Below, piece by piece: positions 23,103 to 51,203 of a DNA stretch of 64,000 nt (positions within the stretch are counted from its first letter, which is position 1; every line of letters starts with the position of its first letter). The position numbers were made by a program, and so were the translations under genes. A model generated the notes under the pieces. That model made no database searches. It saw only the letters and a list, made by a program, of their open reading frames with translations, and was not told the DNA's origin. Source of the stretch: Paenibacillus sp. (GTDB lineage: Bacteria > Bacillota > Bacilli > Paenibacillales > Paenibacillaceae); the NCBI GenBank assembly GCA_031254035.1, contig JAIRVF010000065.1:49581-113580 (forward strand). The letters run 5' to 3'.

Positions 23103-25466
23103 TTATTTCAGCTCTGCTACCGTAACGCCAGTTCCGCCCTCGCCGTAATTGCCTAGACGGAAACTTTTGATATGCTTATGTTTGTGCAGGTAATCTGTAA
23201 TACCCTTCCGCAGGATACCAGTTCCTTTGCCATGAATCAAATAAACCTGACCCAAATTGCCGAGGAATGCTTCGTCAATGAAGCGATCAACTTCAATCAG
23301 TGCCTCCTCCAGATTGGCACCGCGCAAATCCAGCTCGCTCCGGATATTCTCATCGCGCGTCCGTTTTACCGTCGTCGCCTGCCGTTGTGCCTGCTTGGCT
23401 GCAGCTTCATGAGATTGGACGAGCTCCAGATCGTCTAATCTAACCTTCATCTTCATAATTCCGAGCTGAACGACTGCTTCTTTCGAACCTGCCAGTTCAA
23501 CAACATGCCCTTTCTGGTTCAGGCTGTAGACCATAACCTCATCGCCTGCTTCAATTTTGCGTGGGGCTTTAGTTTTGCGTGCCTTCGTCTTTTGCCGCTG
23601 CTGTGGTTCAGCCTCGTCAAGCATCTTCCGGGCTGCTATCAGCTTATGCTCCTTGACGGAAGCACCTTCCTCCTTGGCAAGTTGACGCAGATCACTAATA
23701 ATTTCCTCCGCCTCGCGTCTTGCTTTCGCAATGACCTCCCGGGCTTCGGTCTGCGCCTTTTCGATCAGGCGGTCGCGCTGCTGCTCAAGTTTTTCAAGCT
23801 CCTGCTGGTGTTGGCTGCGCAGCTGCTCCATTTCCTGGCGGAGTTTTTCCGCCTGCTCCCGTTCCACTTCGGCTCCCAGCCGGTTTTCTTCAAGCGATGC
23901 GATCATATGCTCTACGCGCTGATCCTCTTCGGTTACTTCTCCGCGCGCGAATTCCAGAATTTTGTTCGGCAGTCCAAGCCGTTCTGCAATCGCAAACGCG
24001 TTGCTTCGGCCCGGCACGCCCACAAGCAGTCGGTACGTCGGACTTAATGTATTGACGTCAAATTCCATGCTGGCATTAATAACAGCCTTCCGTTCATATG
24101 CATATGCCTTCAATTCGCTATAATGCGTCGTAGCCACCATCCGGCAGCCTGTTTGATGGATATTCTCCAGAATGGCGATCGCTAGGGCCGAACCTTCAGC
24201 AGGATCGGTGCCGGCGCCAACCTCATCCAGCAGAACAAGGCTTTTGGGCGTCATGTTCTTCAAAATGCGGATGATGTTGGTCATATGACTGGAGAATGTA
24301 CTTAGGCTTTGCTCAATGCTCTGCTCATCGCCAATGTCGGCATAAATGGCATCAAATACGCAAAGCTGGCTGCCTTCCTCTGCCGGTACAAACAAACCAG
24401 ACATCGCCATTAGACTCAGGAGACCGATCGTTTTCAGCGTTACCGTTTTACCGCCGGTATTCGGACCCGTGACGATAATCGAAGTAGAGGAATTGCCGAG
24501 CTCCACATCGATCGGAACCACCTTGTCCATCTCAATAAGAGGATGTCGGCCTTTACGAAGCTTGAGGAAACCCCGGTCATTCATTTTCGGCATCGACGCC
24601 TTCATCACATGAGCCAAGCGGGCTTTGGCGAAAATAAAGTCAAGCTGTCCCACCAAGTCCAGATCATACAGCATCAAATCGGCCTGGTCCCCAACGAGAG
24701 CTGTCAGCTTCTGCAAAATAATTTCAATTTCGCGTTCTTCCTTCATACGCGTCTCGCGCAGCTTGTTGTTCATCGCCACAATCGATTCAGGCTCGATGAA
24801 CAAAGTTGCGCCGGAGCCGGACTGATCATGCACAATGCCCCCGAAATACGAACGGTATTCCGCTTTCACGGGAATGACGAACCGATCCCCTCGGATCGTA
24901 ACCAATTGATCTTGAAGCATCTTGGCTACGGAGGATGAACGGATCATATTATCCAACTTTTCGCGAATGCGCGCTTCTCCTCCACGGAGCTCTCTTCGGA
25001 TTTGCGCAAGTCCAGGGCTCGCGGAGTCCATAACTTCCGCTTCTTCCGAGATGCAAAACTTAATGGAATCCTCAAGCGATTTCTGTTCGGATATATTTTC
25101 GCTGATACCCATCAGCAGCTGCAACGGCTCATCTTCATTCATTTGGGAAATAAAACGTTTGATGCGTCTTGACCCGTACACTGTGTTACCAATAGCGAGC
25201 AATTCATGTGGGTTCAGCGTGCCGCCAATTTTCGCGCGTTTCAGGGCAGCTGACACATCGCTGATCCCTCCAAAAGAAGGCACTCCCTTTAGCCGGTCCA
25301 CAGTATACGCTTCATCGGTTGCCTGAAGCAGTCTTTTTACCAATTCAAGATCGGTTTCCGGCTGCAAGTTTTCCGTGATTTGCTTTCCCATGGAGGTTTG
25401 GGCGTAGCTGACACATTTATTTAAAATCTTGCGGTATTCCAGCGTATGCAAAATTTTGTCGTCCAA
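23103..25466 (-). CDS. mutS2: MutS2 (RqcU-type) ATPase with Smr domain
   Basis: This 787-residue MutS-family ATPase lacks the N-terminal mismatch-recognition domain. It has the core and clamp helices, Walker A GPNTGGKTV, Walker B VLLDEVGAGTDPAEGSAL, a long coiled coil at about residues 510-620, a KOW-like segment (GDEVMVYSLNQKGHV) and a C-terminal Smr domain (LDLRGANLEEA, LIHGKGTGILRKG). In B. subtilis the protein acts on collided ribosomes and has been linked to recombination. The start is taken as TTG at 25466 because the protein then begins MDDKILHTLEY, like its relatives, with AGAGGAG 11 bases upstream. An ATG at 25487 overlaps that signal. Confidence 0.92.
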   Translation of the reverse strand: MDDKILHTLEYRKILNKCVSYAQTSMGKQITENLQPETDLELVKRLLQATDEAYTVDRLKGVPSFGGISDVSAALKRAKIGGTLNPHELLAIGNTVYGSRRIKRFISQMNEDEPLQLLMGISENISEQKSLEDSIKFCISEEAEVMDSASPGLAQIRRELRGGEARIREKLDNMIRSSSVAKMLQDQLVTIRGDRFVIPVKAEYRSYFGGIVHDQSGSGATLFIEPESIVAMNNKLRETRMKEEREIEIILQKLTALVGDQADLMLYDLDLVGQLDFIFAKARLAHVMKASMPKMNDRGFLKLRKGRHPLIEMDKVVPIDVELGNSSTSIIVTGPNTGGKTVTLKTIGLLSLMAMSGLFVPAEEGSQLCVFDAIYADIGDEQSIEQSLSTFSSHMTNIIRILKNMTPKSLVLLDEVGAGTDPAEGSALAIAILENIHQTGCRMVATTHYSELKAYAYERKAVINASMEFDVNTLSPTYRLLVGVPGRSNAFAIAERLGLPNKILEFARGEVTEEDQRVEHMIASLEENRLGAEVEREQAEKLRQEMEQLRSQHQQELEKLEQQRDRLIEKAQTEAREVIAKARREAEEIISDLRQLAKEEGASVKEHKLIAARKMLDEAEPQQRQKTKARKTKAPRKIEAGDEVMVYSLNQKGHVVELAGSKEAVVQLGIMKMKVRLDDLELVQSHEAAAKQAQRQATTVKRTRDENIRSELDLRGANLEEALIEVDRFIDEAFLGNLGQVYLIHGKGTGILRKGITDYLHKHKHIKSFRLGNYGEGGTGVTVAELK

Positions 25467-25700
25467 GAATTCCACTACTCCTCTCATACATTACTTTTAT
25501 TATATACGAAATCGCCGAGGCTTCGCTATTTGCGAAAACAACTATAACAATTTTCCACTAAATCCGCCAAAGTCTAATACATAACATTTCATAAATTGAA
25601 TACAATAAACGTTGCATACAGAATCCATTTCATAATCAATGAACTAACGAATTATGAAATGATTCATCAACGTATCTTTCACCCAAAGGAGGCCAATGGC

Positions 25701-26060
25701 ATGCATTTTCTGGGTCATGTCGTACGATTTATCGTTTCCGCGATTGTGCTTATGGTTGTCGGCTGGATCGTTCCGCAGTTCTCCGTCGGTGGGTTCTGGA
25801 GCGCTCTATTATTGGCTCTGGTCATCGCTTTGTTTGGCTGGGCTATCGAAGGAATCTTCGGCAAGAGAGTCACGCCGTTCGGTCGGGGCATCGTCGGTTT
25901 CTTGATCAGCGCGCTGGTCATATACATCGCCCAATTTATTGTTGGTGGGGTTAGCGTCACCATCCTTGGTGCGGTGCTTGCCGCTCTCGTCATCGGGATC
26001 ATCGACCTGTTCATTCCGGTAGCGACGCCATTCGACGCAGGCAAAGAACACCGTAGATAA
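25701..26060 (+). CDS. Phage-holin superfamily IV-like membrane protein (YvlD type)
   Basis: This 119-residue, very hydrophobic protein has four membrane helices and the motif FGKRVTPFGRGIVGF between helices 2 and 3, as in chromosomal 4-TM proteins such as YvlD. Despite the family name these are not phage lysis proteins in most genomes, and no phage genes are nearby. The start at 25701 has AAAGGAGG 8 bases upstream. An in-frame upstream ATG at 25596 would add a non-hydrophobic, unrelated stretch. Function unknown. Confidence 0.83.
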   Translation: MHFLGHVVRFIVSAIVLMVVGWIVPQFSVGGFWSALLLALVIALFGWAIEGIFGKRVTPFGRGIVGFLISALVIYIAQFIVGGVSVTILGAVLAALVIGIIDLFIPVATPFDAGKEHRR

Positions 26061-26074
26061 CTCTTACAGATGAA

Positions 26075-26105
26075 ATACCCCCTATTCCCACGGAACAGGG
26101 GGTAT
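26075..26105. terminator. Terminator between convergent genes
   Basis: ATACCCCCTATTCC (26075-26088) and GGAACAGGGGGTAT (26092-26105) form a 14-bp stem with one mismatch and a CACG loop. Confidence 0.8.
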
Positions 26106-26125
26106 TTGTCGCTGCCTATGATGGA

Positions 26126-27268
26126 TCAGATGGAAGCAACCTTGCTTTCAAGTGAGTCTTTCAAAATCGCGTCGTTAGCCGTCACCACTTTATTTTTACC
26201 GGTCCGTTTCGCATAATAAAGAGCGCTGTCTGCTTTCCGGAACAAAGACTCTTTATCATCTCCCGGCTGATAGTCACATAAGCCGATGCTTACCGTTACC
26301 GGTCGGCCTTTCATATTTGAATACTCAACGATGGATATGCCTCTCCGCAGTTCTTCCGTAATCGATTGAGCTTCCGCCAAGCTTTTGTCCGCGAAAATAA
26401 CCGCAAATTCTTCCCCGCCATACCGCGCGGCGAAATCATTGGGCATCATAATCGCAGTGATCGTTGAGGCCACTTGTTTGAGCACAAGATCGCCTACCCA
26501 ATGTCCGTACGAGTCATTGACTTTTTTAAATCCGTCGATATCGATAATCGCTAGCTGCAGCGGCAAATGGTATTTTTCTGTATGTTCCAGCAGAGCGTCC
26601 AAATATTCATGAAATGTCTTATGGTTATAAAGCCCCGTCAAGGCATCCATTTTGAGCAGCTTGTCCGAAATGGTTTTCTCAACGAGCAGCTGCTGTTCGG
26701 AGTTCATCACCGTTCTCAAGTATCTGTAAAATTCCTTAACTCTAAACAAAATCACGTTTCCGATCATCAGGCTGACCGCAAACACGCTTTCGGTCTGGAT
26801 GAATTCTTGTATTGGCTTATGATAGAGCGAGCGTTCAATCAAAAAGTAGATCGGTATGTACGCCAGCATCGTAAATAAGCCAAACCCATAGAGCATCCTG
26901 CAGTCGAAATAAACTATGGATATCAAAACGGGAAGCAACAAGGCCATCTGCGCGCCATCCGCCGTCGGTTCGATAATAATATAAAATATACAGGACCATA
27001 AAAAAGCGCAGCCCGCAATGGCTTTTTTATGATGCTTTGGCCAATATCTCAGCCATAATTCGGTTATAACGAGCAGCAGCAACATTAAACCGTTCGAGCC
27101 TGCCGTTCGGACCCAAGAGCCCGCATCCTTTCCCGACGAACCCGGAAGGACTTCGCCTGACAGTAAAAAAACAGTTTGTGCCGCGAGAAACATCAGCATG
27201 ACGATCCAGAAGGCATTAAGAATTTTACGATGCCACCGGTCCTCCAAAATAACATTTTCCCTGTCCAT
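26126..27268 (-). CDS. Membrane-bound diguanylate cyclase
   Basis: This 380-residue protein makes cyclic di-GMP. Six predicted helices fill residues ~18-190. A GGDEF domain follows, with substrate motif DALTGLYNHKTF, the metal segment IDIDGFKKVNDSYGH and the active-site loop YGGEEFAVIF. All catalytic residues are present. The inhibitory I-site RxxD is absent (MPND at that position), so product feedback is not expected by the usual route. There is no PAS or other recognised soluble sensor. The gene is monocistronic. Confidence 0.92.
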   Translation of the reverse strand: MDRENVILEDRWHRKILNAFWIVMLMFLAAQTVFLLSGEVLPGSSGKDAGSWVRTAGSNGLMLLLLVITELWLRYWPKHHKKAIAGCAFLWSCIFYIIIEPTADGAQMALLLPVLISIVYFDCRMLYGFGLFTMLAYIPIYFLIERSLYHKPIQEFIQTESVFAVSLMIGNVILFRVKEFYRYLRTVMNSEQQLLVEKTISDKLLKMDALTGLYNHKTFHEYLDALLEHTEKYHLPLQLAIIDIDGFKKVNDSYGHWVGDLVLKQVASTITAIMMPNDFAARYGGEEFAVIFADKSLAEAQSITEELRRGISIVEYSNMKGRPVTVSIGLCDYQPGDDKESLFRKADSALYYAKRTGKNKVVTANDAILKDSLESKVASI

Positions 27269-27507
27269 TAAAAAGTCAATCCCCTACTCTAGGAAAGAAT
27301 AATCTTGCAATACAAAAAAAATAATATAAATTATGATTAATATTATATCTGAATGGAAAAATAAACACATCACTTCCTGGGTGTAATGGATTGACTAATG
27401 CAATGAGTTCACCAATTATTCAAAACAGGAATGCGCTACCCTTCCATTTTTGGGTTATGATGACTACTAGAATTGTCACAAAAAATTTACGTTTGAGGAG
27501 GATTACA

Positions 27508-27897
27508 TTGAAAAAGGCCATAGCTTTTGCTCTTTCCTGTATGCTTCTCCTGGTGCTTTCCGCTTGTGGAGGAGGAAAAAATGATGTTTCAACTGCAAGC
27601 AGCGGTGTCAGCGACACAGGCGTTACCCCTAGCGAGGAACTGATTATTAAAGCGAAGAACTTTGCTTTTGATAAACAAGAATATCATCTTAAAAAAGGGG
27701 TTCCCATCAAAATCACGCTCAAAAATGAAGATGGAATTCACGGCGTATTGATCCCAGGCCTTGAATTGAATCTGGACAACAATCAAAAATCCCAAGTGGT
27801 GACTCCGGACAAAGCTGGAACTTTTGAAATATCTTGCTCCGTTATGTGCGGTGCGGGACATTCGAACATGCTCGCCAAAGTGATTGTAGACGAATAA
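27508..27897 (+). CDS. Small CuA-type cupredoxin lipoprotein
   Basis: This 129-residue lipoprotein has the lipobox LSAC at residues 15-18. After a linker comes one cupredoxin domain resembling the copper-binding tail of cytochrome oxidase subunit II. The CuA ligand pattern is complete: His in EDGIHGVLIP and CSVMCGAGHSNM (C-x3-C-x3-H-x2-M). There are no membrane helices of a true subunit II and no oxidase genes nearby, so it may be a free electron carrier or copper chaperone. The start is TTG at 27508 behind GAGGAG with 7-base spacing; the frame upstream is not secretory. Confidence 0.85.
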   Translation: MKKAIAFALSCMLLLVLSACGGGKNDVSTASSGVSDTGVTPSEELIIKAKNFAFDKQEYHLKKGVPIKITLKNEDGIHGVLIPGLELNLDNNQKSQVVTPDKAGTFEISCSVMCGAGHSNMLAKVIVDE

Positions 27898-27909
27898 ACC
27901 ACACAAGCA

Positions 27910-27974
27910 ATCCCCCCACGGGTGACCCTGCAGAAACGTTATCATGAGTCCTGCTGGGTAGCCCGTGGGGGGAT
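27910..27974 (+). terminator. Long-stem terminator after the cupredoxin gene
   Basis: ATCCCCCCACGGG pairs with CCCGTGGGGGGAT, continuing as an inner stem (ACCCTGCAG/CTGCTGGGT) with an AT-rich loop, then TTTTATT. Overall shape recalls the element at 7947-8015. Confidence 0.85.
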
Positions 27975-27994
27975 TTTATTCTGTTCTACAGCAA

Positions 27995-30430
27995 TCAGTT
28001 TTGATCCTGTTCAATCAATTCGATCCATTCATTATATTCGTTTTGAAGCTTGGCATACTCGTCCTCAAGCTGGCTATGCTCTTCCCTGAGCTTTTCCGTA
28101 TTTTCCTTCTGAAGCTCAAGCTCCGCCTGAAGCAGTCGGTGCTGGTTGGCCATCAACTCGAAGTCATCGCCAACCTCCCTTAATTGGGCGGCCGCGCTCT
28201 CCTTTTCGCCCTGCAGCTTCCCCAGCTGTTCGTCGCTTGCTGCGATTTGGCGCTTCCATTCCTGAAGCTCATTCTGAAGCTCCTGCTCTTTGCTGTTCCA
28301 ATTCTGCTGGTGGCTCGTCATTTCCTCCAGCTTTTCCTGATAGGCCTGCAGCGCAAGCTCGCTGCTTTGCATGAACTCACGCTGTTCGTTTTCCCTGGTT
28401 GCGGCGTCATCCAGCATACGAGTCAGTTCTTGCACCTTCTGCAGCGCCTGATCTTTTTCCTCAAGCACCATCAGATACTCGATTTCGGTATCCTCCTGCT
28501 GGCGCTTCATTTCGCTGCCTTTCTGCTGAAGTTCATCATATTGCTTTTGCAAGCCTTGATATTGCTGCTTCAAATTGTCGTATTGTTGCAAGTGCTCCTG
28601 ATATAGCCGCTCGATGTCGCCATATCTCTGCCCGGATTCCTTGGCCTGCCGCTCGGCTTCCTCGCAAGCCAGCTCACGCTTCGCGAGCACTTCGCCAAGC
28701 TGCTCGACTTTCCGGCTGCTTTCGGCGATCTTGTTCAAAAGTTCCTCATATTCTTGTACATGCTGGTCATATTGATCCTTCAACACCTCATGCTGTTGAA
28801 GTGCTTCTCCATATTGCCGCTGCAGCTTCCGATACTGCTCTTCCTTTTCTTCCACAGACAGCTGAAGCTGCTTTTGATGGTTTTCCTTCTCTTGCATGGA
28901 TCGCTTAAGCTCCCCGATCCGCGCCTCGCCAGACTCGAGCTTGGCCTGTAAATCCTGCAGCTGCTGTTCCTTGGCTACAAGCTGCTCCTTCTGTTCTTCA
29001 ATGGAAAGTTCTTGAAGCTGCAACGTTTCATCCAGAACTTCTATTTTCTTGAGTTGTGAATCAATCAACTGCTGCTGCTCCTCCAGCTTGTGCTGCTGCT
29101 CTTCGGATATTTGTAGTAGGGAAGCGGTTTTCCGGGATTCTTTCTCCGCCTGCTCCTTCAATACGCTCAGCTCATCATGAAGCGCCTTCATGCCGGTTTC
29201 AAGCGTATCGTTCTGCTCCCCTGCTTCCAGAACGCGCAGCTCCAGCTCGCTGATTTCTTCCTTTTGTTTATCCACCTGACTTTGCCAAGAAGCAGCCTCC
29301 GAGGTGAGCTTCTCAATCTCCGCCTTCTGCTTCTGTGAAGAATCCCCATACTCCTCAAGCAGCTTCTGCATCCGGCGCTGTTCCTCCTCCGCATGGGCCG
29401 CTTCCTCTTTGAGATGATTGATCTGCACGTTCAGACGATTCTGCTGCTCCCTGAGCGTCTTCAATTCCGTCTGGGAAACTTCTTCTTTCTTCAGTGCAGC
29501 CTGATGCTGCTCCTGAAGTTTGGTATGAGCATTTGTCGCCAGTTGGAGCTCCTCTTGCAAACCACGAATCTTCCCTTGCAACTGGGAGCTACCACTGCGC
29601 AATTCGTACAGTTGCTTGTTTAATGCATCGACGCCTTCCTTATGTTTCTGCTCCGTTTCCTGCTGGGAAGTTTCGTATTTTACCTGGGATTCCCTAAGCA
29701 TGGCTTGATTCTTCTCATCCGTGCTTTTCAGAAGCTCCTGGTGTTTCTGCTGCACTGACTGAAGCGCCACCGCATGGCTTCGTTCCAGCTCCTGTATGGC
29801 AACTTTGTTCCGCGATTCAAGCTCCTGTAAAGCATTTTTATGCCGCGATTCAAGCGACTGCTTCTCACGCAGCAGCTGCTCGGCGGCCTGCTTCTCCTTC
29901 CGCTGCAGAGACTCTTTGGCTTCCTTTTCCTTCTTCAATAAGGCGCGGGCTTGTTCAAGCTCCTTCCCCATCGATTTTTGCGTTCTCTGAAGCTCTGCCG
30001 TATGCGAAGCTTTCGTTTCCTCCAACTGCTTCAGAAGCCCCGTTTTCTCGGCTTCCCACTGTTTCCGAAGCTCATCCTTCTCTTTGGTCCCTGCAAGATG
30101 CTCTTCCTGGAGCTTCGTAACCTTCTCCTGCTGTTCCGCGTGCGTAGCCTGAAGTTTCGAAAGCTCACTCCGCAACTCGCTTCTTTCGCCGGTCAACATT
30201 TTGACTTGGGCTTGAGCATCCTTAAGATGGACTGCTTCCTCAGCCATATGTACGGCAGTTAAAACGGCAAGCTTCATTACATCAAGCCTGGAATGGCTCT
30301 TTGAGATGGAAATCATGCGTTCATCCACATAGGCAGCAACCTTTTTCATATAGTCGGCACTGCTGCCTACCAATTTATAAGAAGTCCCGTAAATATCCAC
30401 GGTGACGCGTGTACGCTCAGGTGTAGTCAC
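27995..30430 (-). CDS. Giant ZapA-like cell division protein with long coiled coil
   Basis: This 811-residue protein begins with a ZapA domain at about residues 1-80: VTVDIYGTSYKLVGSSADYM, then YVDERMISISKSHSRLD and KLAVLTAVHMAEEAV. ZapA binds and bundles FtsZ at the division ring and is normally only 80-110 residues. Here some 725 further residues form an almost unbroken Q/E/K-rich coiled coil. No membrane segment or enzyme motif is seen. Its place directly after pheT matches zapA in B. subtilis, so it is the ortholog by position. The start is GTG at 30430, with AAGGAGGG 7 bases upstream; the ATG at 30448 lies before that signal. Confidence 0.88.
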   Translation of the reverse strand: MTTPERTRVTVDIYGTSYKLVGSSADYMKKVAAYVDERMISISKSHSRLDVMKLAVLTAVHMAEEAVHLKDAQAQVKMLTGERSELRSELSKLQATHAEQQEKVTKLQEEHLAGTKEKDELRKQWEAEKTGLLKQLEETKASHTAELQRTQKSMGKELEQARALLKKEKEAKESLQRKEKQAAEQLLREKQSLESRHKNALQELESRNKVAIQELERSHAVALQSVQQKHQELLKSTDEKNQAMLRESQVKYETSQQETEQKHKEGVDALNKQLYELRSGSSQLQGKIRGLQEELQLATNAHTKLQEQHQAALKKEEVSQTELKTLREQQNRLNVQINHLKEEAAHAEEEQRRMQKLLEEYGDSSQKQKAEIEKLTSEAASWQSQVDKQKEEISELELRVLEAGEQNDTLETGMKALHDELSVLKEQAEKESRKTASLLQISEEQQHKLEEQQQLIDSQLKKIEVLDETLQLQELSIEEQKEQLVAKEQQLQDLQAKLESGEARIGELKRSMQEKENHQKQLQLSVEEKEEQYRKLQRQYGEALQQHEVLKDQYDQHVQEYEELLNKIAESSRKVEQLGEVLAKRELACEEAERQAKESGQRYGDIERLYQEHLQQYDNLKQQYQGLQKQYDELQQKGSEMKRQQEDTEIEYLMVLEEKDQALQKVQELTRMLDDAATRENEQREFMQSSELALQAYQEKLEEMTSHQQNWNSKEQELQNELQEWKRQIAASDEQLGKLQGEKESAAAQLREVGDDFELMANQHRLLQAELELQKENTEKLREEHSQLEDEYAKLQNEYNEWIELIEQDQN

Positions 30431-30491
30431 AGTTGTGCCCTCCTTCATATGTGTGTTGATTCTAAGATGTCTGGTTACCTTTAGCAAAAAA

Positions 30492-30546: not shown

Positions 30547-32997
30547 CTATTTTCTCAATTCTGCATGAAAAGTTTGCTCAAGTCGGCTCACAACGGCTGC
30601 GTGAGCAGATGAAACCTCTTCATCCGTCAACGTGCGCTCGCTATGACGATATACCATGGAAATCGCAACGCTCTTCTTACCTTCGCCTAACTTGCTGCCC
30701 GTGAACACATCAAATACTTGTACAGACTGCAGCAATTCTCCAGCGGCTTCGCGAATAGCGGACAACATCGCTCCCACTTCCACGCTGTCGTCTACAACTA
30801 CCGCGATATCACGCTCAGAAGCTGGGAAACGCGGAAGTTCACGGTATTTGATCTCTTCACTCGCATGATCATAAAGCGGCTGAAGCAAAATTTCTGCTGT
30901 GTAAACATCGGCAAGACCGCGGTCCTGTTGAAGCTGCGGATGCACTTGTCCCAACGTGCCAAGGAGCTGCCGTTCGCCGCCCTCGCGGGTCAAGTATACG
31001 GAAGCCGAACGTCCCGGATGGAAGCCTTGCGGCTGGTTCGCCACATAGCTGATCGAGTCTTGCAGTCCAAGATATTCAAACAATGTCTCAAGGGCCCCCT
31101 TCAAGTCGAAGAAATCGACTGGCTCAGGTGTTTGATTCCATTGCTTTTGTCCACGGTTTCCGCACAGCAGCAGCGTCAGCACCGGAATTTCTTGCGGCTG
31201 GGCCGTCGGCTGCTCCTCTTGGCTGTAGAATACATTTCCGATCTCGAACACGGCAAGATCATTTTGCTTGCGGTTAGCATTATAAGCAACAACATCAAGC
31301 AGCTGAGGAATGATGCTCGTACGCAGTACACTGCGCTCCTCGCTCATCGGCATCGCGAGTTTGACTGCATGCGCTCCTTCGGTTAGTGCCGGGAATAGAG
31401 TGGTCTCATCAGGATGCGTAAAGGAGTAGCCAATGACTTCCTGCCATCCGCCATGCGTGAATAATTTCCGGAAGTCACGGCGCAAAGCCTGCGACTTCGT
31501 GTACGCCCCCGGCGTCGTTGGCCCTTCGATCGCAGTCGTCGGAATGTTGTCGTATCCGTATAAACGGGCGATCTCTTCGATAAGATCCACGTCTCTGGTA
31601 ATATCGCCGCGGCGCGAAGGCACCTTAACTTCTAAAATACCCTGCGCAGTATCCGCACAGCTGAAACGCAGACGGCTGAATATCGTCTTCACTTCAAGCA
31701 TCGAAAGATCCGTACCAAGGAAACGGTTCAGCTTATCAAAAGAAAGCACAATCACCTTGTCTTCCGTTTCAGCAGTTCCGGCTTCCACGATCCCCTTGTG
31801 AACCGCTCCTTCTGCATAACGGGAAATCAGTTCGGCCGCACGGTTCAGTGCAGGGATGACGGCACCCGGATCCACTTCTTTCTCAAAGCGCAGGCTCGCT
31901 TCAGAGCGAAGCCCCAGCTGTCTTGAAGTTTTACGTACAGTACCTCCGTCAAATTTGGCGGATTCCAGCAAAATATTTACCGTGCCGTCCGTCACTTCGG
32001 AGTTGAGTCCACCCATCACGCCAGCAAGCGCAACCGGCTTCACGCCATCGGTGATCAGCAGCATATGCGGCTCCAGCTTGCGTTCCTGTCCATCCAGCGT
32101 CACAAGAGTTTCGCCTTCCCTGGCAAGACGAACGTCAATAGCGCCATTCGTAAGCTGATCTGCATCAAATGCGTGCAGCGGCTGGCCATACTCCAACATG
32201 ACATAGTTGGTAATGTCGACGATGTTGCCGATTGGGCGCACGCCTGCAGCCATCAGACGATTCTGCATCCACTGCGGCGAAGGACCGATCTTCACACCGG
32301 TAATATATCTCGCAGCATAATGGCTGCATTGCTCCGGAGAGCTGATCTTCACAGAAATATGGCTATCTGCGGCATCACTAACTTCCACCAGTTCCTTCTC
32401 GGGGTTCGGCAGTTTAACGTCACGGCCGAGAATGGCCCCAACTTCATAAGCCGCGCCAGTCATGCTCAAACAATCAGAACGGTTCGGCGTCAGATCAAAT
32501 TCCAGCACCTGATCATCCAGACCCAGCACTTGACCGATCGGCGTTCCAATCTGCAAAGATTCCGGCAGCACCAGAATGCCTTCCTGCTGTTCTTTCGGCA
32601 GCAGCTTATCGTTTAAGCCCAACTCTTTGGCCGAGCAAATCATCCCTTGGGAAGCAACACCGCGGAGCTTGGCTTTTTTGATTTCCAATCCTCCCGGAAG
32701 CTTCGCACCTACAAGCGCCACTGGCACCTTTTGGCCGGCATCGACGTTTTTAGCACCGCATACGATTTGAAGTTCTTCCTCTTGTCCGGCATCAACGATG
32801 CACACATTCAGCTTATCTGCATCCGGATGCTTTTCCTTGCTCTTCACGTAGCCGACAACGACTTTCGTGACCCCTTTGTCGCGGTTTTCAATCTCATCGA
32901 TTTCGATTCCAGCACGCGTAATTTTCTCAGCAAGCTCCTCGGCCGCCACATTTTCAAGCGATACATAATCCGCTAACCATTCCGTTGATACTTTCAT
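30547..32997 (-). CDS. pheT: Phenylalanine-tRNA ligase beta subunit
   Basis: This 816-residue subunit forms the (alpha-beta)2 PheRS. In order: an N-terminal tRNA-binding OB fold (VVGYVKSKEKHPDADKLNVC), the B3/B4 editing region (MTGAAYEVGAILGRDVK, TPNRSDCLSMTG), the B5 domain, the catalytic-like core (YSFTHPDE), and the C-terminal RNP-type anticodon-binding domain (FPASERDIAVVVDD, VFDVFTGSKLGEGKKS). Full length is as expected. It lies 48 bases after pheS, with GGAAGGGA before the ATG, and is controlled by the same T-box. Confidence 0.97.
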   Translation of the reverse strand: MKVSTEWLADYVSLENVAAEELAEKITRAGIEIDEIENRDKGVTKVVVGYVKSKEKHPDADKLNVCIVDAGQEEELQIVCGAKNVDAGQKVPVALVGAKLPGGLEIKKAKLRGVASQGMICSAKELGLNDKLLPKEQQEGILVLPESLQIGTPIGQVLGLDDQVLEFDLTPNRSDCLSMTGAAYEVGAILGRDVKLPNPEKELVEVSDAADSHISVKISSPEQCSHYAARYITGVKIGPSPQWMQNRLMAAGVRPIGNIVDITNYVMLEYGQPLHAFDADQLTNGAIDVRLAREGETLVTLDGQERKLEPHMLLITDGVKPVALAGVMGGLNSEVTDGTVNILLESAKFDGGTVRKTSRQLGLRSEASLRFEKEVDPGAVIPALNRAAELISRYAEGAVHKGIVEAGTAETEDKVIVLSFDKLNRFLGTDLSMLEVKTIFSRLRFSCADTAQGILEVKVPSRRGDITRDVDLIEEIARLYGYDNIPTTAIEGPTTPGAYTKSQALRRDFRKLFTHGGWQEVIGYSFTHPDETTLFPALTEGAHAVKLAMPMSEERSVLRTSIIPQLLDVVAYNANRKQNDLAVFEIGNVFYSQEEQPTAQPQEIPVLTLLLCGNRGQKQWNQTPEPVDFFDLKGALETLFEYLGLQDSISYVANQPQGFHPGRSASVYLTREGGERQLLGTLGQVHPQLQQDRGLADVYTAEILLQPLYDHASEEIKYRELPRFPASERDIAVVVDDSVEVGAMLSAIREAAGELLQSVQVFDVFTGSKLGEGKKSVAISMVYRHSERTLTDEEVSSAHAAVVSRLEQTFHAELRK

Positions 32998-33045: not shown

Positions 33046-34080
33046 TTACTTGCGGGCAAACTGCTTCAAAAATGCCATGTCACTGCTATAGAAATGACGA
33101 ATGTCGTCAATGCCGTATTTCAAAATTGCGATCCGCTCCACACCCATGCCGAATGCAAAGCCGCTGTATTTCTCCGGATCATAACCGCCCATTTCAAGCA
33201 CTTTCGGATGCACCATGCCGCAGCCCAAGATTTCCAGCCATCCCGTATGCTTGCATATCCGGCAGCCATCGCCGCCACATTTGACACAGGTAACATCTAC
33301 TTCCGCACTTGGCTCCGTGAACGGGAAGAAACTTGGACGAAGACGAATTTGAGTGCTCGGACCGAACATTTCCTGCATGAACTGAAGCAGCGTACCTTTC
33401 AGATCACTCATGCGGATATTTTCGCCGATGACCAAACCTTCAATTTGGTTGAACTGGAAGGAGTGCGTAGCGTCATCATCATCGCGGCGGTATACCTTAC
33501 CTGGGCAGATGATTTTGACGGGCACTTCGCCCTGCATTTTTTCCATGGTGCGGATTTGCATCGGAGAAGTTTGCGTCCGCATCAAAATTTCTTCCGTTAT
33601 ATAAAACGTATCCTGCATGTCTCGTGCCGGGTGGTTTTTCGGAAGGTTCAGCGCTTCGAAATTGTAATAATCCGTTTCCACTTCCGGGCCTTCAGCGATA
33701 TGATAGCCCATACCGATGAAAATTTCCTCCATTTCCTCGATCACCTTGTTCAGCGGGTGAATGCCGCCTTGCTCCATTTTGCGTCCAGGCAGCGTAACGT
33801 CGATTTTTTCCGCCTGCAGGCGTTTTTCGGTTTCTGCCTTTTGGAATGCTTCCTGCTTGGACTCGATCAATGCTTCGATCGCGCCACGCACTTCATTTGC
33901 CACCTGGCCGATTTTCGGACGTTCCTCCGCGCTCAGCGAGCCCATTCCCCGCAAAACTTCAGTCAGAGCACCTTTTTTACCCAAATATTTGACGCGCAGG
34001 TCGTTCAGCGTCTGTACACCTTTTACCCCATGCAGCTGGTCCAAGGCTTCCTGCCGCAGTGCTTCGAGTTTTTCCTTCAT
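33046..34080 (-). CDS. pheS: Phenylalanine-tRNA ligase alpha subunit
   Basis: This 344-residue catalytic subunit charges tRNA-Phe. It has the N-terminal coiled-coil arm (residues 1-85) and class II motifs, including motif 2 near [21 protein letters not shown] and motif 3 [17 protein letters not shown]. The specificity-pocket region near [10 protein letters not shown] is intact. The start at 34080 has GGAGG about 9 bases upstream. The open frame runs on to 34227 into the T-box, but that part is regulatory RNA. Confidence 0.97.
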
Positions 34081-34180
34081 CTCTTTCTGCCTCCTTCTTA
34101 AAATAAAACGTACCGCATATTCCGGACTTGCATGAAACGGACTAACCCGGACATTCAAGCCCCAAGCTTTGCAGAAAATA

Positions 34181-34460
34181 AAAAAGGCCTTTTCTCCCGA
34201 AAAGGGACGAAAAGACCGTGGTACCACCCTTGTTAGAACAACTTGCCGCTTGCTGCAGGCAAATAATGCTTGTTCTCACTTTGATCGCTGTAACGGAAGC
34301 GAGACCGGTATCCCCTACTGTCAAACCGGCAATTGCATTGCGGTCAGAGGTTCAGGGAACTGCTCCGGAGGGAATTTCGGCAGCCTGTTACTGTAGAAAC
34401 GCTCTCAATCGGCGGCGTCTCCTCCCTGTAAAGTGGCACTGCGTACTTGTCTCCATCATT
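34181..34460 (-). promoter_or_regulatory. T-box leader controlling pheST
   Basis: The minus strand carries the T-box sequence GGGTGGTACCACGG (34229-34216), followed by a terminator hairpin (GGTCTTTTC ... GAAAAGGCC, then TTTTTT, ending at 34181). Upstream, GGGAGGAGACGCC near 34438 opens the Stem I region. A TTC triplet in GAGCGTTTCTACAG (about 34400) is the candidate phenylalanine specifier. Uncharged tRNA-Phe binding would favour the antiterminator and switch on pheS-pheT. The T-box and terminator are plain; the specifier placement is my reading. Confidence 0.9.
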
Positions 34461-49502: not shown

Positions 49503-51203
49503 GTGGCTAAAATCGGAATCGATCTGGGAACATCGAACAGCCTTGTCGCTTATTGGACAGAAAATGGTCCCGAAATAATTCCTAACTCACTGGGGAATCA
49601 TTTGACGCCTTCGGTCGTCAGTCTGGATGATAGCGGTGAAATTTTGGTGGGGCAAATTGCCAAAGAGAGATTGATTACGCATCCCCACCTCACCGTCTCG
49701 GCCTTCAAGCGGTATATGGGGACCGACAAGCAATACCAGCTTGGCAAATACATATTTACACCGGAGGATTTATCTTCCTTTGTGCTCCGATCATTAAAAG
49801 AAGATGCCGAAGCCCATCTTGGCGAAGAGATTGATGAAGCCGTCATCAGCGTCCCGGCATATTTCAATGATGCGCAGCGTAAATCTACCTTGCGTGCCGC
49901 GCTGCTTGCCGGACTGCATGTAGAGCGGCTGATCAGTGAGCCGACCGCAGCGGCCGTCTCCTACGGACTGCATCAATATGACTCGGAAACACGCTTCCTT
50001 GTTTTTGACTTGGGCGGCGGGACCTTTGACGTCTCCGTGCTTGAATTATTCGAAGGGATTATGCAGGTTCAGTCGATCGCCGGAGATAACTATCTGGGTG
50101 GGGAGGATTTTACCGAGCTGCTGATATCCCATTTTGCCCAGTCGCATAAAATCGATTTTTCCAATTTATCGAACAAAGCGCAATCCGCCTTGTTCAAACA
50201 GGCAGAGTTATGTAAGCTTGCGCTTGGAAATGGAAATGTTGGAGAGATGGTATTTACGCATGAAGACCAAACCTATCAAACAAGCGTGAACCGAACCCAA
50301 TATGAACAGCTTGCTGCCCAGCTTCTGCTGCGTTTGCGCAATCCTATTGAACGGGCACTTCGCGATGCCTCGCTAGCGCCACAGGATCTTGATGCCGTCA
50401 TCCTGATTGGCGGAGCTACGCGAATGCCTGTCATCAAAACCATCGTCAGCAAAATGTTCGGTCGGCTCCCCTACTCGCAGATCAATCCGGATGAAGCCGT
50501 GGCGCTTGGGGCAGCCATTCAAGTCGCGCTCAAAGAGCGGAATGCTGGCTTACAAGAAATCATTTTGACGGATGTATGCCCATTTACGTTGGGAACGGAT
50601 GTCTCCAGGCAGATGGGCGATGGAAGTTATAGTCACGGACATTTCGATCCAATTATTGAACGAAATACGCCGATCCCTGTAAGCAAAGTTAAGAGCTATG
50701 TGCCACTCCACGATCACCAGGAAATGATAAGTATAATCGTTTATCAAGGCGAAAGTCGAAAAGTCGAAAACAACATTAAAATCGGGGAAATTGATATTCC
50801 GATCCCAATTGCTAAGGCAGGAAGAGAATCTGTTCAAGTACGATACACCTATGACATCAATGGAGTTCTAGAAGTAGAGCTTACCGCCGAAAGCACAGGT
50901 CTGAAAAAATCGATGATCATCGAAAAAAATCCCGGCCAATCCACGCCCGAGCAAATCCAGGCAAGGCTTGAAGAGCTTAAGCATCTCAAAATTCATCCGC
51001 GGGACCGCAGCGAAAACCGCCTGCTTCTGGCCAGAGGCGAAAGGCTTTATGAGGAGTCGTTGAATGAAAGACGAGAATATATCACCGAGCTAATGATGGC
51101 ATTCGAGCAAGTTCTTGCGACTCAAAATGAACAGGAAATTAAGAAAAGAGCTGCCCAATTCAAACAGCAACTCGATTCCCTTGAAAGGTGGATGGAGTTT
51201 TAA
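49503..51203 (+). CDS. hscC: HscC-type Hsp70 chaperone
   Basis: This 566-residue Hsp70 has the full ATPase domain (phosphate loops GIDLGTSNSLVAYW and VFDLGGGTFDVSVLE, adenosine motif ILIGGATRMPVIK) and a substrate-binding beta domain. The C-terminal lid is short and there is no EEVD-like or acidic DnaK tail. Size and order match E. coli HscC rather than DnaK. The partner is the J-like protein whose ATG overlaps this stop (TAATG). The start is GTG at 49503 with AGAGG 9 bases upstream. Clients are unknown. Confidence 0.9.
   Translation: MAKIGIDLGTSNSLVAYWTENGPEIIPNSLGNHLTPSVVSLDDSGEILVGQIAKERLITHPHLTVSAFKRYMGTDKQYQLGKYIFTPEDLSSFVLRSLKEDAEAHLGEEIDEAVISVPAYFNDAQRKSTLRAALLAGLHVERLISEPTAAAVSYGLHQYDSETRFLVFDLGGGTFDVSVLELFEGIMQVQSIAGDNYLGGEDFTELLISHFAQSHKIDFSNLSNKAQSALFKQAELCKLALGNGNVGEMVFTHEDQTYQTSVNRTQYEQLAAQLLLRLRNPIERALRDASLAPQDLDAVILIGGATRMPVIKTIVSKMFGRLPYSQINPDEAVALGAAIQVALKERNAGLQEIILTDVCPFTLGTDVSRQMGDGSYSHGHFDPIIERNTPIPVSKVKSYVPLHDHQEMISIIVYQGESRKVENNIKIGEIDIPIPIAKAGRESVQVRYTYDINGVLEVELTAESTGLKKSMIIEKNPGQSTPEQIQARLEELKHLKIHPRDRSENRLLLARGERLYEESLNERREYITELMMAFEQVLATQNEQEIKKRAAQFKQQLDSLERWMEF

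Follow-up and report, generated by a model that had tools for sequence, protein, structure and literature searches.

The zapA locus of a Paenibacillus sp. genome raises the question of whether a protein of 811 amino acids (aa) can be the true ZapA of its cell and, if so, what such a length might do for the FtsZ ring. The gene lies within a 64,000-nt stretch of DNA (assembly GCA_031254035.1, contig JAIRVF010000065.1, forward-strand positions 49,581 to 113,580), all of which we refer to as the window. We identify its product as a ZapA with a long coiled-coil rod that ends in a segment resembling the C-terminus of short ZapA, find that the long form is a trait of the order, and tentatively read the protein as a cross-linker of FtsZ filaments with an unusually long reach.

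The first-pass annotation of this DNA had recognized a ZapA domain at the N-terminus, and the profile search bears this out: PF05164 matches residues 9-95 with 46.7 bits (E value 4e-12), above the Pfam cut-off of 23.8, and the NCBIfam ZapA model PRK14126 matches residues 3-77 at 1.1e-16 with 60.3 bits, under its equivalog cut-off of 80. A profile of heads from the order (order and class are used in GTDB terms, which we take to mean Paenibacillales and Bacilli) found the solved structures 2mmv at E 2.4e-26, 1t3u and 1w2e at 5.7e-6, and 3hnw at 2.7e-5. The same annotation had placed pheT next to the gene and mutS2 and yshE further on, had taken the protein for the true ZapA, enlarged rather than duplicated, and had suggested looking for a second, short zapA. 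By Pfam the gene order is pheS-pheT-zapA, as described, with mutS2 and a DUF350 gene beyond; a pheT match lies within 2.5 kb upstream of zapA at all 111 fetched loci of the order; and the whole genome (157 contigs, 99.89% complete) contains a single PF05164 match. Its FtsZ, read from an inferred start, begins MLEFD and thus keeps Phe4, the N-terminal FtsZ residue named for Gram-positives in PMC12216130. On the evidence of head, locus, copy number and terminal motif, the protein is a member of the ZapA family and the orthologous ZapA of its locus, enlarged and not duplicated; its departure from the family is one of size.

To place this size among relatives, ZapA lengths were taken from genome searches as open frames, and are hence upper bounds. 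The window's genus gave a ZapA match in 99 of 100 genomes, all frames but one being at least 355 aa; that exception (G063) and the 355-aa frame of G035 are both frame-broken. Within the family, where a survey of ZapA length had been proposed, 293 of 295 genomes have a match, with frames of 275-1616 aa among the matches listed, and across the order 145 of 149 genomes match, with frames of 129-1746 aa, a few of them cut by contig ends. The 100 loci fetched from the order gave open reading frames (ORFs) of 123-1740 aa, three of which are frame-broken (G035, G047 and G063). The class sample matched in 146 of 151 genomes, 12 of these in the order; the best ZapA frames of the 134 outside it span 74-258 aa, with 3 of the 134 scoring below the cut-off. 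A second ZapA match was found in two genomes, G062 (contamination 10%) and G114. Among the best 80 of 292 loci in a collection of named records, 78 are titled Paenibacillus, with examples in P. cookii (1024 aa), P. dendrobii (996 aa) and P. silagei (821 aa). Long ZapA is therefore a trait of the order and not of one genome, and when 110 loci are placed on a PheT tree, short forms fall among long ones, for instance 138 aa beside 534-598 aa. Longer frames outside the class or order, taken from among the matches listed, were rejected as stop-to-stop artefacts: those of 666 aa (G452/G568) and 248-354 aa (G445, G491, G529 and G617) contain ORFs of 92-176 aa. Two records under other names, L288 (Neobacillus mesonae MER 107) and L293 (Bacillus sp. 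FJAT-27264), carry a Paenibacillus-type zapA and are probably misfiled.

A clue to what the enlargement has kept is found at the far end of the protein. The order's tip motif, ..EYAKLQ.EYNEWIELIEQ, closes 96 of the 100 fetched ORFs (anchor NEW, NDW or DEW), and 76 of the 80 loci in the named collection end in NEW. Counted from the anchor Asn, Leu at -12, Leu at -5 and Glu at -2 are present in 96 of 96, while the constancy of the Trp is partly built in because the tip alignments were anchored on NEW, NDW or DEW. The four ORFs lacking a tip comprise the three frame-broken copies, which have NEW in another frame, and G353, of 123 aa. Between the window protein and nine distant relatives, identity is 47-68% in the head and 60-74% in the tip, compared with 25-38% in the rod. 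Short ZapA of other Bacillota has the C-terminal consensus DEYFKLKEEYEELLKLLEEE (n=34), with which the tip consensus DEYAKLQTEYNEWIELIEQD shares 10 identities over 20 positions without gaps, Trp standing in the tip where short ZapA has Leu.

A position-specific scoring matrix (PSSM) made from 35 short-ZapA C-termini gave the tip the highest score of all windows from residue 86 onward in 92 of 95 proteins, and placed it within the top three in 94; over the whole protein it came first in 90 of 95, and in 8 of 11 further proteins. The frame-broken G035, G047 and G063 were dropped from protein analyses, and G353 (no anchor) and G122 (ORF ending inside the scored window) from the PSSM ranking. The mean tip score was 18.0, against a mean of -13.5 (standard deviation 8.9, maximum 8.7) for 300 permutations in which columns were shuffled within the core and within the non-core class. 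The tip is also strongly hydrophobic, with no 19-residue window from residue 96 on exceeding it in 90 of 108 proteins. A hidden Markov model (HMM) of 32 tips, run blind over 101 class genomes, located the ZapA end in the order's 7 genomes (E 1.8e-9 to 1.1e-14) and, at E up to 1, 37 weak places in 30 genomes outside it, 15 of them inside zapA. Since zapA is a tiny fraction of a genome, as a rough expectation chance should give practically no such placements.

The tip thus resembles the C-terminal end of ordinary short ZapA, and because this ancestral-type C-terminus sits at the far tip, the rod lies within ZapA's own C-terminal helix. The earlier description of a coil following the ZapA domain accordingly needs amending: the long rod is there, but it was not simply appended, the C-terminus having been kept beyond it. 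In several relatives the canonical C-terminal segment also persists beside the head, and there the rod may be flanked by a copy at either end. Two smaller ZapA rods in other families of the same class are independent of the order's: in G667 (L218, 241 aa) the best PSSM window is the C-terminal end (12.7), and in G699 (L219, 215 aa) the best window, at -1.2, is too weak to count.

Between these two ends, the window protein has no proline in residues 96-811, and the hydrophobic periodicity of its rod peaks at 3.50 residues with a power of 29.7, the maximum of 1000 shuffles being 11.7. At the coiled-coil rise of 0.1485 nm per residue the rod measures about 111 nm, and the longest rod (in a protein of 1740 aa) about 249 nm; the near-continuous coil spanning roughly 100 nm that had been predicted for the window protein agrees with these results. 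Across 95 proteins of the order whose rods reach 60 residues or more (three of 98 with shorter rods were left out), 18 prolines occur in 68,822 rod residues, and 80 of the 95 have none. The rod draws weak matches to SMC and similar coiled-coil models of NCBIfam, all far under their cut-offs. With a ratio of nonsynonymous to synonymous substitution rates (dN/dS) of 0.08-0.26 in 11 close pairs, it is under purifying selection. When periodicity was scored in 83 rods, hendecads outweighed heptads in the proximal third in 50 of them and in the distal two thirds in 3.

Most changes in rod length come in steps of 7 or 11 residues, which preserve the coil. In 23 close pairs, each protein being used once, there were 20 rod insertions or deletions (indels), of which 13 were multiples of 7, five multiples of 11, and the remaining two measured 4 and 17 residues; 18 or more of 20 falling on multiples of 7 or 11 has a probability of 1.8e-10 under uniform lengths, although some pairs share ancestry and the events are not fully independent. 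Within this set, indels in multiples of 11 fall between residues 194 and 384, and those in multiples of 7 between 402 and 738. Among all 121 pairs, one 49-residue difference was split by the aligner into 26 and 23. Rods of some near relatives differ by 49-252 residues, the maximum being between G009 and G087, which are 79% identical. Tandem arrays occur in 60 of 98 zapA genes, and their periods, counted by row, are multiples of 21 bp in 73 cases, multiples of 33 bp in 59 and neither in 42. These changes are compatible both with slippage between repeats that are in phase and with selection that maintains the phase.

Features of the zapA region, in positions of the window
Feature	Position	Strand	Remarks
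zapA, 811 aa	27995..30430	minus	GTG start at 30430, TGA stop included; PF05164 4e-12
Shine-Dalgarno AAGGAGG (plus-strand CCTCCTT)	30439..30445	minus	8 nt before GTG of zapA
ZapA head domain, residues 9-95	30146..30406	minus	Pfam match
Proximal rod, hendecad-like (11/3) periodicity, ~residues 157-288	29567..29962	minus	Sliding windows
33-bp (11-residue) tandem repeat in proximal rod	29783..29855	minus	2.2 copies
Main heptad rod, ~residues 256-783	28082..29665	minus	All windows from 256-354 onward peak at a period of 3.48-3.52
Conserved C-terminal tip HSQLEDEYAKLQNEYNEWIELIEQD, residues 785-809	28004..28078	minus	Resembles end of short ZapA
pheT	30547..32997	minus	Pfam; directly upstream of zapA, synteny anchor
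pheS	33046..34227	minus	Pfam; start codon not settled

The full seven-base AAGGAGG precedes the chosen zapA start in 72 of 100 fetched relatives, a count that is not independent, as the starts were chosen partly by this motif. In the interval between zapA and mutS2, Pfam finds cupredoxin/COX2-like and Phage_holin_4_2 genes on the opposite strand and a GGDEF gene on the zapA strand. Of these zapA neighbors (window 23103-30430), the COX2-like gene was kept at 90, the holin-family gene at 91 and mutS2 at 101 of 120 loci, 8.5 kb downstream being searched.

What the rod might do is best approached from ordinary ZapA, where FtsZ is bound by two head dimers that a bundle of their four C-terminal helices holds together (PMC12216130, PMC12754632); a coil mutant that cannot go beyond the dimer shows only sparse binding to FtsZ filaments and fails to complement (PMC12216130, PMC7246612). 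We tentatively favor, at close to even confidence, the reading that the orthologous ZapA of the order has turned into a long-reach FtsZ cross-linker, with heads on FtsZ and tips joining two parallel dimers. The head dimer would hold the N-termini of FtsZ in the manner of the Klebsiella ZapA-FtsZ complex, the rod would be a parallel in-register dimer, and the hydrophobic tip would act like the C-terminal bundle of ordinary ZapA and join two dimers. In the resulting dumbbell the FtsZ-binding heads could stand up to about 2 x 110 nm apart, or about 2 x 250 nm for the longest protein of the series, and FtsZ filaments might be tethered across much of the Z ring, the rod serving as a spacer rather than a ruler of fixed length. 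From binding onward, each step, including FtsZ binding, tip association and localization, is one that we infer from the sequences. That the tip still joins dimers is suggested by the retention of this terminal segment beyond a rod that is under selection, and that parallel, in-register dimers meet at their tips is suggested by the asymmetry of the rod, hendecad near the head and heptad beyond. The spacing or cross-linking of FtsZ by a rod-bearing ZapA, as first proposed, seems plausible, while a strict ruler is unlikely because length varies by up to 252 residues between near relatives. A more specific version, which we consider possible with less confidence, is a stretchable ZapA: parallel rods would meet tip to tip through the ancestral-type bundle and hold heads tens of nm to about 500 nm apart, often wider than the Z ring, and lineages would retune this reach by heptads or hendecads.

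Several observations weigh against the long-reach cross-linker. Averaged by decile, the shift from hendecad to heptad appears in the window's genus and genus g7, and is missing from 25 long rods of other genera or families; as the asymmetry is weak outside these two genera, we lowered our estimate slightly. Repeat slippage can give multiples of 7 and 11 without selection. In 3 of the 11 further relatives (G379, G380 and G427) a window starting at residue 57-79 outscores the tip over the whole protein, and one permuted PSSM still ranks the tip first in 95 of 96, so that rank partly reflects hydrophobicity and the absolute PSSM score and the blind HMM search must carry the argument. Outside the order the tip HMM gives matches that are themselves weak (E 0.017-0.43), and of the 37 places 22 are not in zapA. 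Finally, because in several relatives a copy of the canonical segment remains beside the head, a partial duplication is as likely as a clean insertion.

The best placed of the alternatives, though we find it doubtful, is that the rod is a tolerated, largely neutral product of slippage, the protein doing the ordinary job of a short ZapA and its length being of little consequence. Differences of 49-252 residues between near relatives, the arrays in 60 of 98 genes and the interleaving of long and short forms on the PheT tree would all follow from it, but the low dN/dS, the scarcity of proline and the phase-keeping indels indicate constraint on a continuous coil, and in the window's own family no frame falls below 275 aa among the matches listed.

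A somewhat unlikely arrangement, on our estimate, has two dimers lying antiparallel along their whole rods, each tip at the partner's head and the heads about 110 nm apart, the two ends being conserved because they touch. The greater likeness of head and tip than of the rod between distant relatives would fit such contact, as would the antiparallel short-ZapA tetramer with its bundled C-terminal helices (PMC12754632, PMC12216130) and the E. coli and Klebsiella ZapA crystals in which the C-terminal tail overlaps the FtsZ N-terminus site (PMC12216130). Full antiparallel overlap would, however, pair unlike supercoils, given the difference between proximal and distal rod, an objection that is itself limited by the weakness of the asymmetry outside the two best-sampled genera.

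The tip might instead dock on some other partner, such as a divisome, membrane or nucleoid protein, and so link FtsZ to it, much as if ZapA and ZapB were combined in one chain. E. coli ZapA works with its partner ZapB (PMC7246612), and where short ZapA has Leu the tip carries a Trp, which is part of the anchor in 96 of 100 ORFs. We judge this unlikely, as the tip resembles ZapA's own C-terminus, and the ZapB profile did not match the window protein at E up to 1.

EzrA, a long helical protein associated with FtsZ, is a coiled-coil regulator of it in other Bacilli, and replacement of EzrA by the giant ZapA would be a further explanation, which we regard as improbable. In the order the best EzrA match reaches 71.9 bits (119 genomes, 14 over the Pfam cut-off), compared with up to 664 bits elsewhere in the class, among the matches listed, and the window's genome gave no match with 10 of 31 candidates scored. 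Against replacement stand the divergent EzrA-like proteins that do exist in the order (61-75 bits by Pfam and NCBIfam), the want of an EzrA match in the window protein at E up to 1, and the occurrence of other class families with short ZapA that are also without an EzrA match among the matches listed, such as f123 and f124. We had considered the weak matches in the order to be unrelated proteins, a view overturned by this Pfam and NCBIfam similarity, because of which we do not claim that EzrA is absent from the order. These EzrA-like proteins, at L078:1000-3690 (-), L079:1066-2718 (+) and L081:1198-3279 (-), score 61-75 bits over EzrA positions 90-519, and that of L078 also carries a TPM domain.

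The possibility raised at the outset that the long frame is a fusion, frameshift or assembly artefact is refuted, since in spite of early-ending frames in 3 of the 100 fetched loci and in L235, L238, L240 and L260 among the 80 named, 97 of 100 ORFs are unbroken in separate assemblies, a number of which consist of one contig, and the tip closes 96. The frames that end before the tip (G035, G047 and G063, with NEW in another frame, and the four named loci, of which L260, the counterpart of G035, is P. macquariensis and L235, the counterpart of G047, P. rhizosphaerae, the others being L238 and L240 (Paenibacillus sp. DMB20)) amount to about five distinct broken copies overall, due to sequencing error in repeats or to real decay.

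ZapA cross-links FtsZ, and its tetramer is assumed to be highly rigid owing to its central four-helix bundle (PMC6917738); the giant forms bear on how far a cross-linker's reach and stiffness shape the Z ring. The Z ring is about 80-100 nm wide (PMC12754632), and one rod of the window protein is longer than that. The orthologues, many of them from close relatives, form a natural series in which the two ends stay the same while the rod ranges from about 12 to about 249 nm, and rod swaps could therefore test how reach affects ring width, treadmilling and constriction. Pfam scans (E up to 0.001) of six full-length giants returned no family in five (L146, L206, L164, L182 and L114), whereas the heads of L146 and L206 scored alone gave 53.5 and 67.7 bits; the coil probably triggers the composition filter in full-length scans. 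Annotation pipelines may consequently call such proteins hypothetical, which is one reason that giant ZapA may have been overlooked. A long ZapA was not described in the titles or abstract starts searched, preprints and most subscription journals being outside that scope.

Compared with known systems, the giant shares its head and C-terminal helix with solved ZapA (2mmv, 1w2e/1t3u of P. aeruginosa, and those of E. coli and Klebsiella) and, in Bacilli, the terminal motif also, and the pheT upstream of it is often found at the short-ZapA loci of Bacillota. In other genomes of the class, with frames of 74-258 aa, the terminal motif directly follows the head, whereas here the head is followed by about 745 residues, with the motif at their far end; 811 aa does not fit the small size of ZapA, which is usual for the family and not diagnostic of it. 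Long helical EzrA differs from the window protein, which combines a ZapA head with a rod and has no EzrA match. The ZapA-ZapB system of E. coli likewise couples a ZapA head to further coiled coil at the Z ring, but the window protein is one chain, far longer, and has no ZapB match. Synaptonemal-complex proteins are also coiled coils and build a ladder about 100 nm wide, but they are meiotic, eukaryotic and unrelated (PMC8598163). The arms of SMC proteins similarly place a coiled coil between two conserved ends and have periodic working lengths (PMC5344682); in B. subtilis the arm of Smc has 344 aa (about 47 nm), and the arm lengths found in nature cluster (PMC5344682), whereas the ZapA rod spans more than an order of magnitude.

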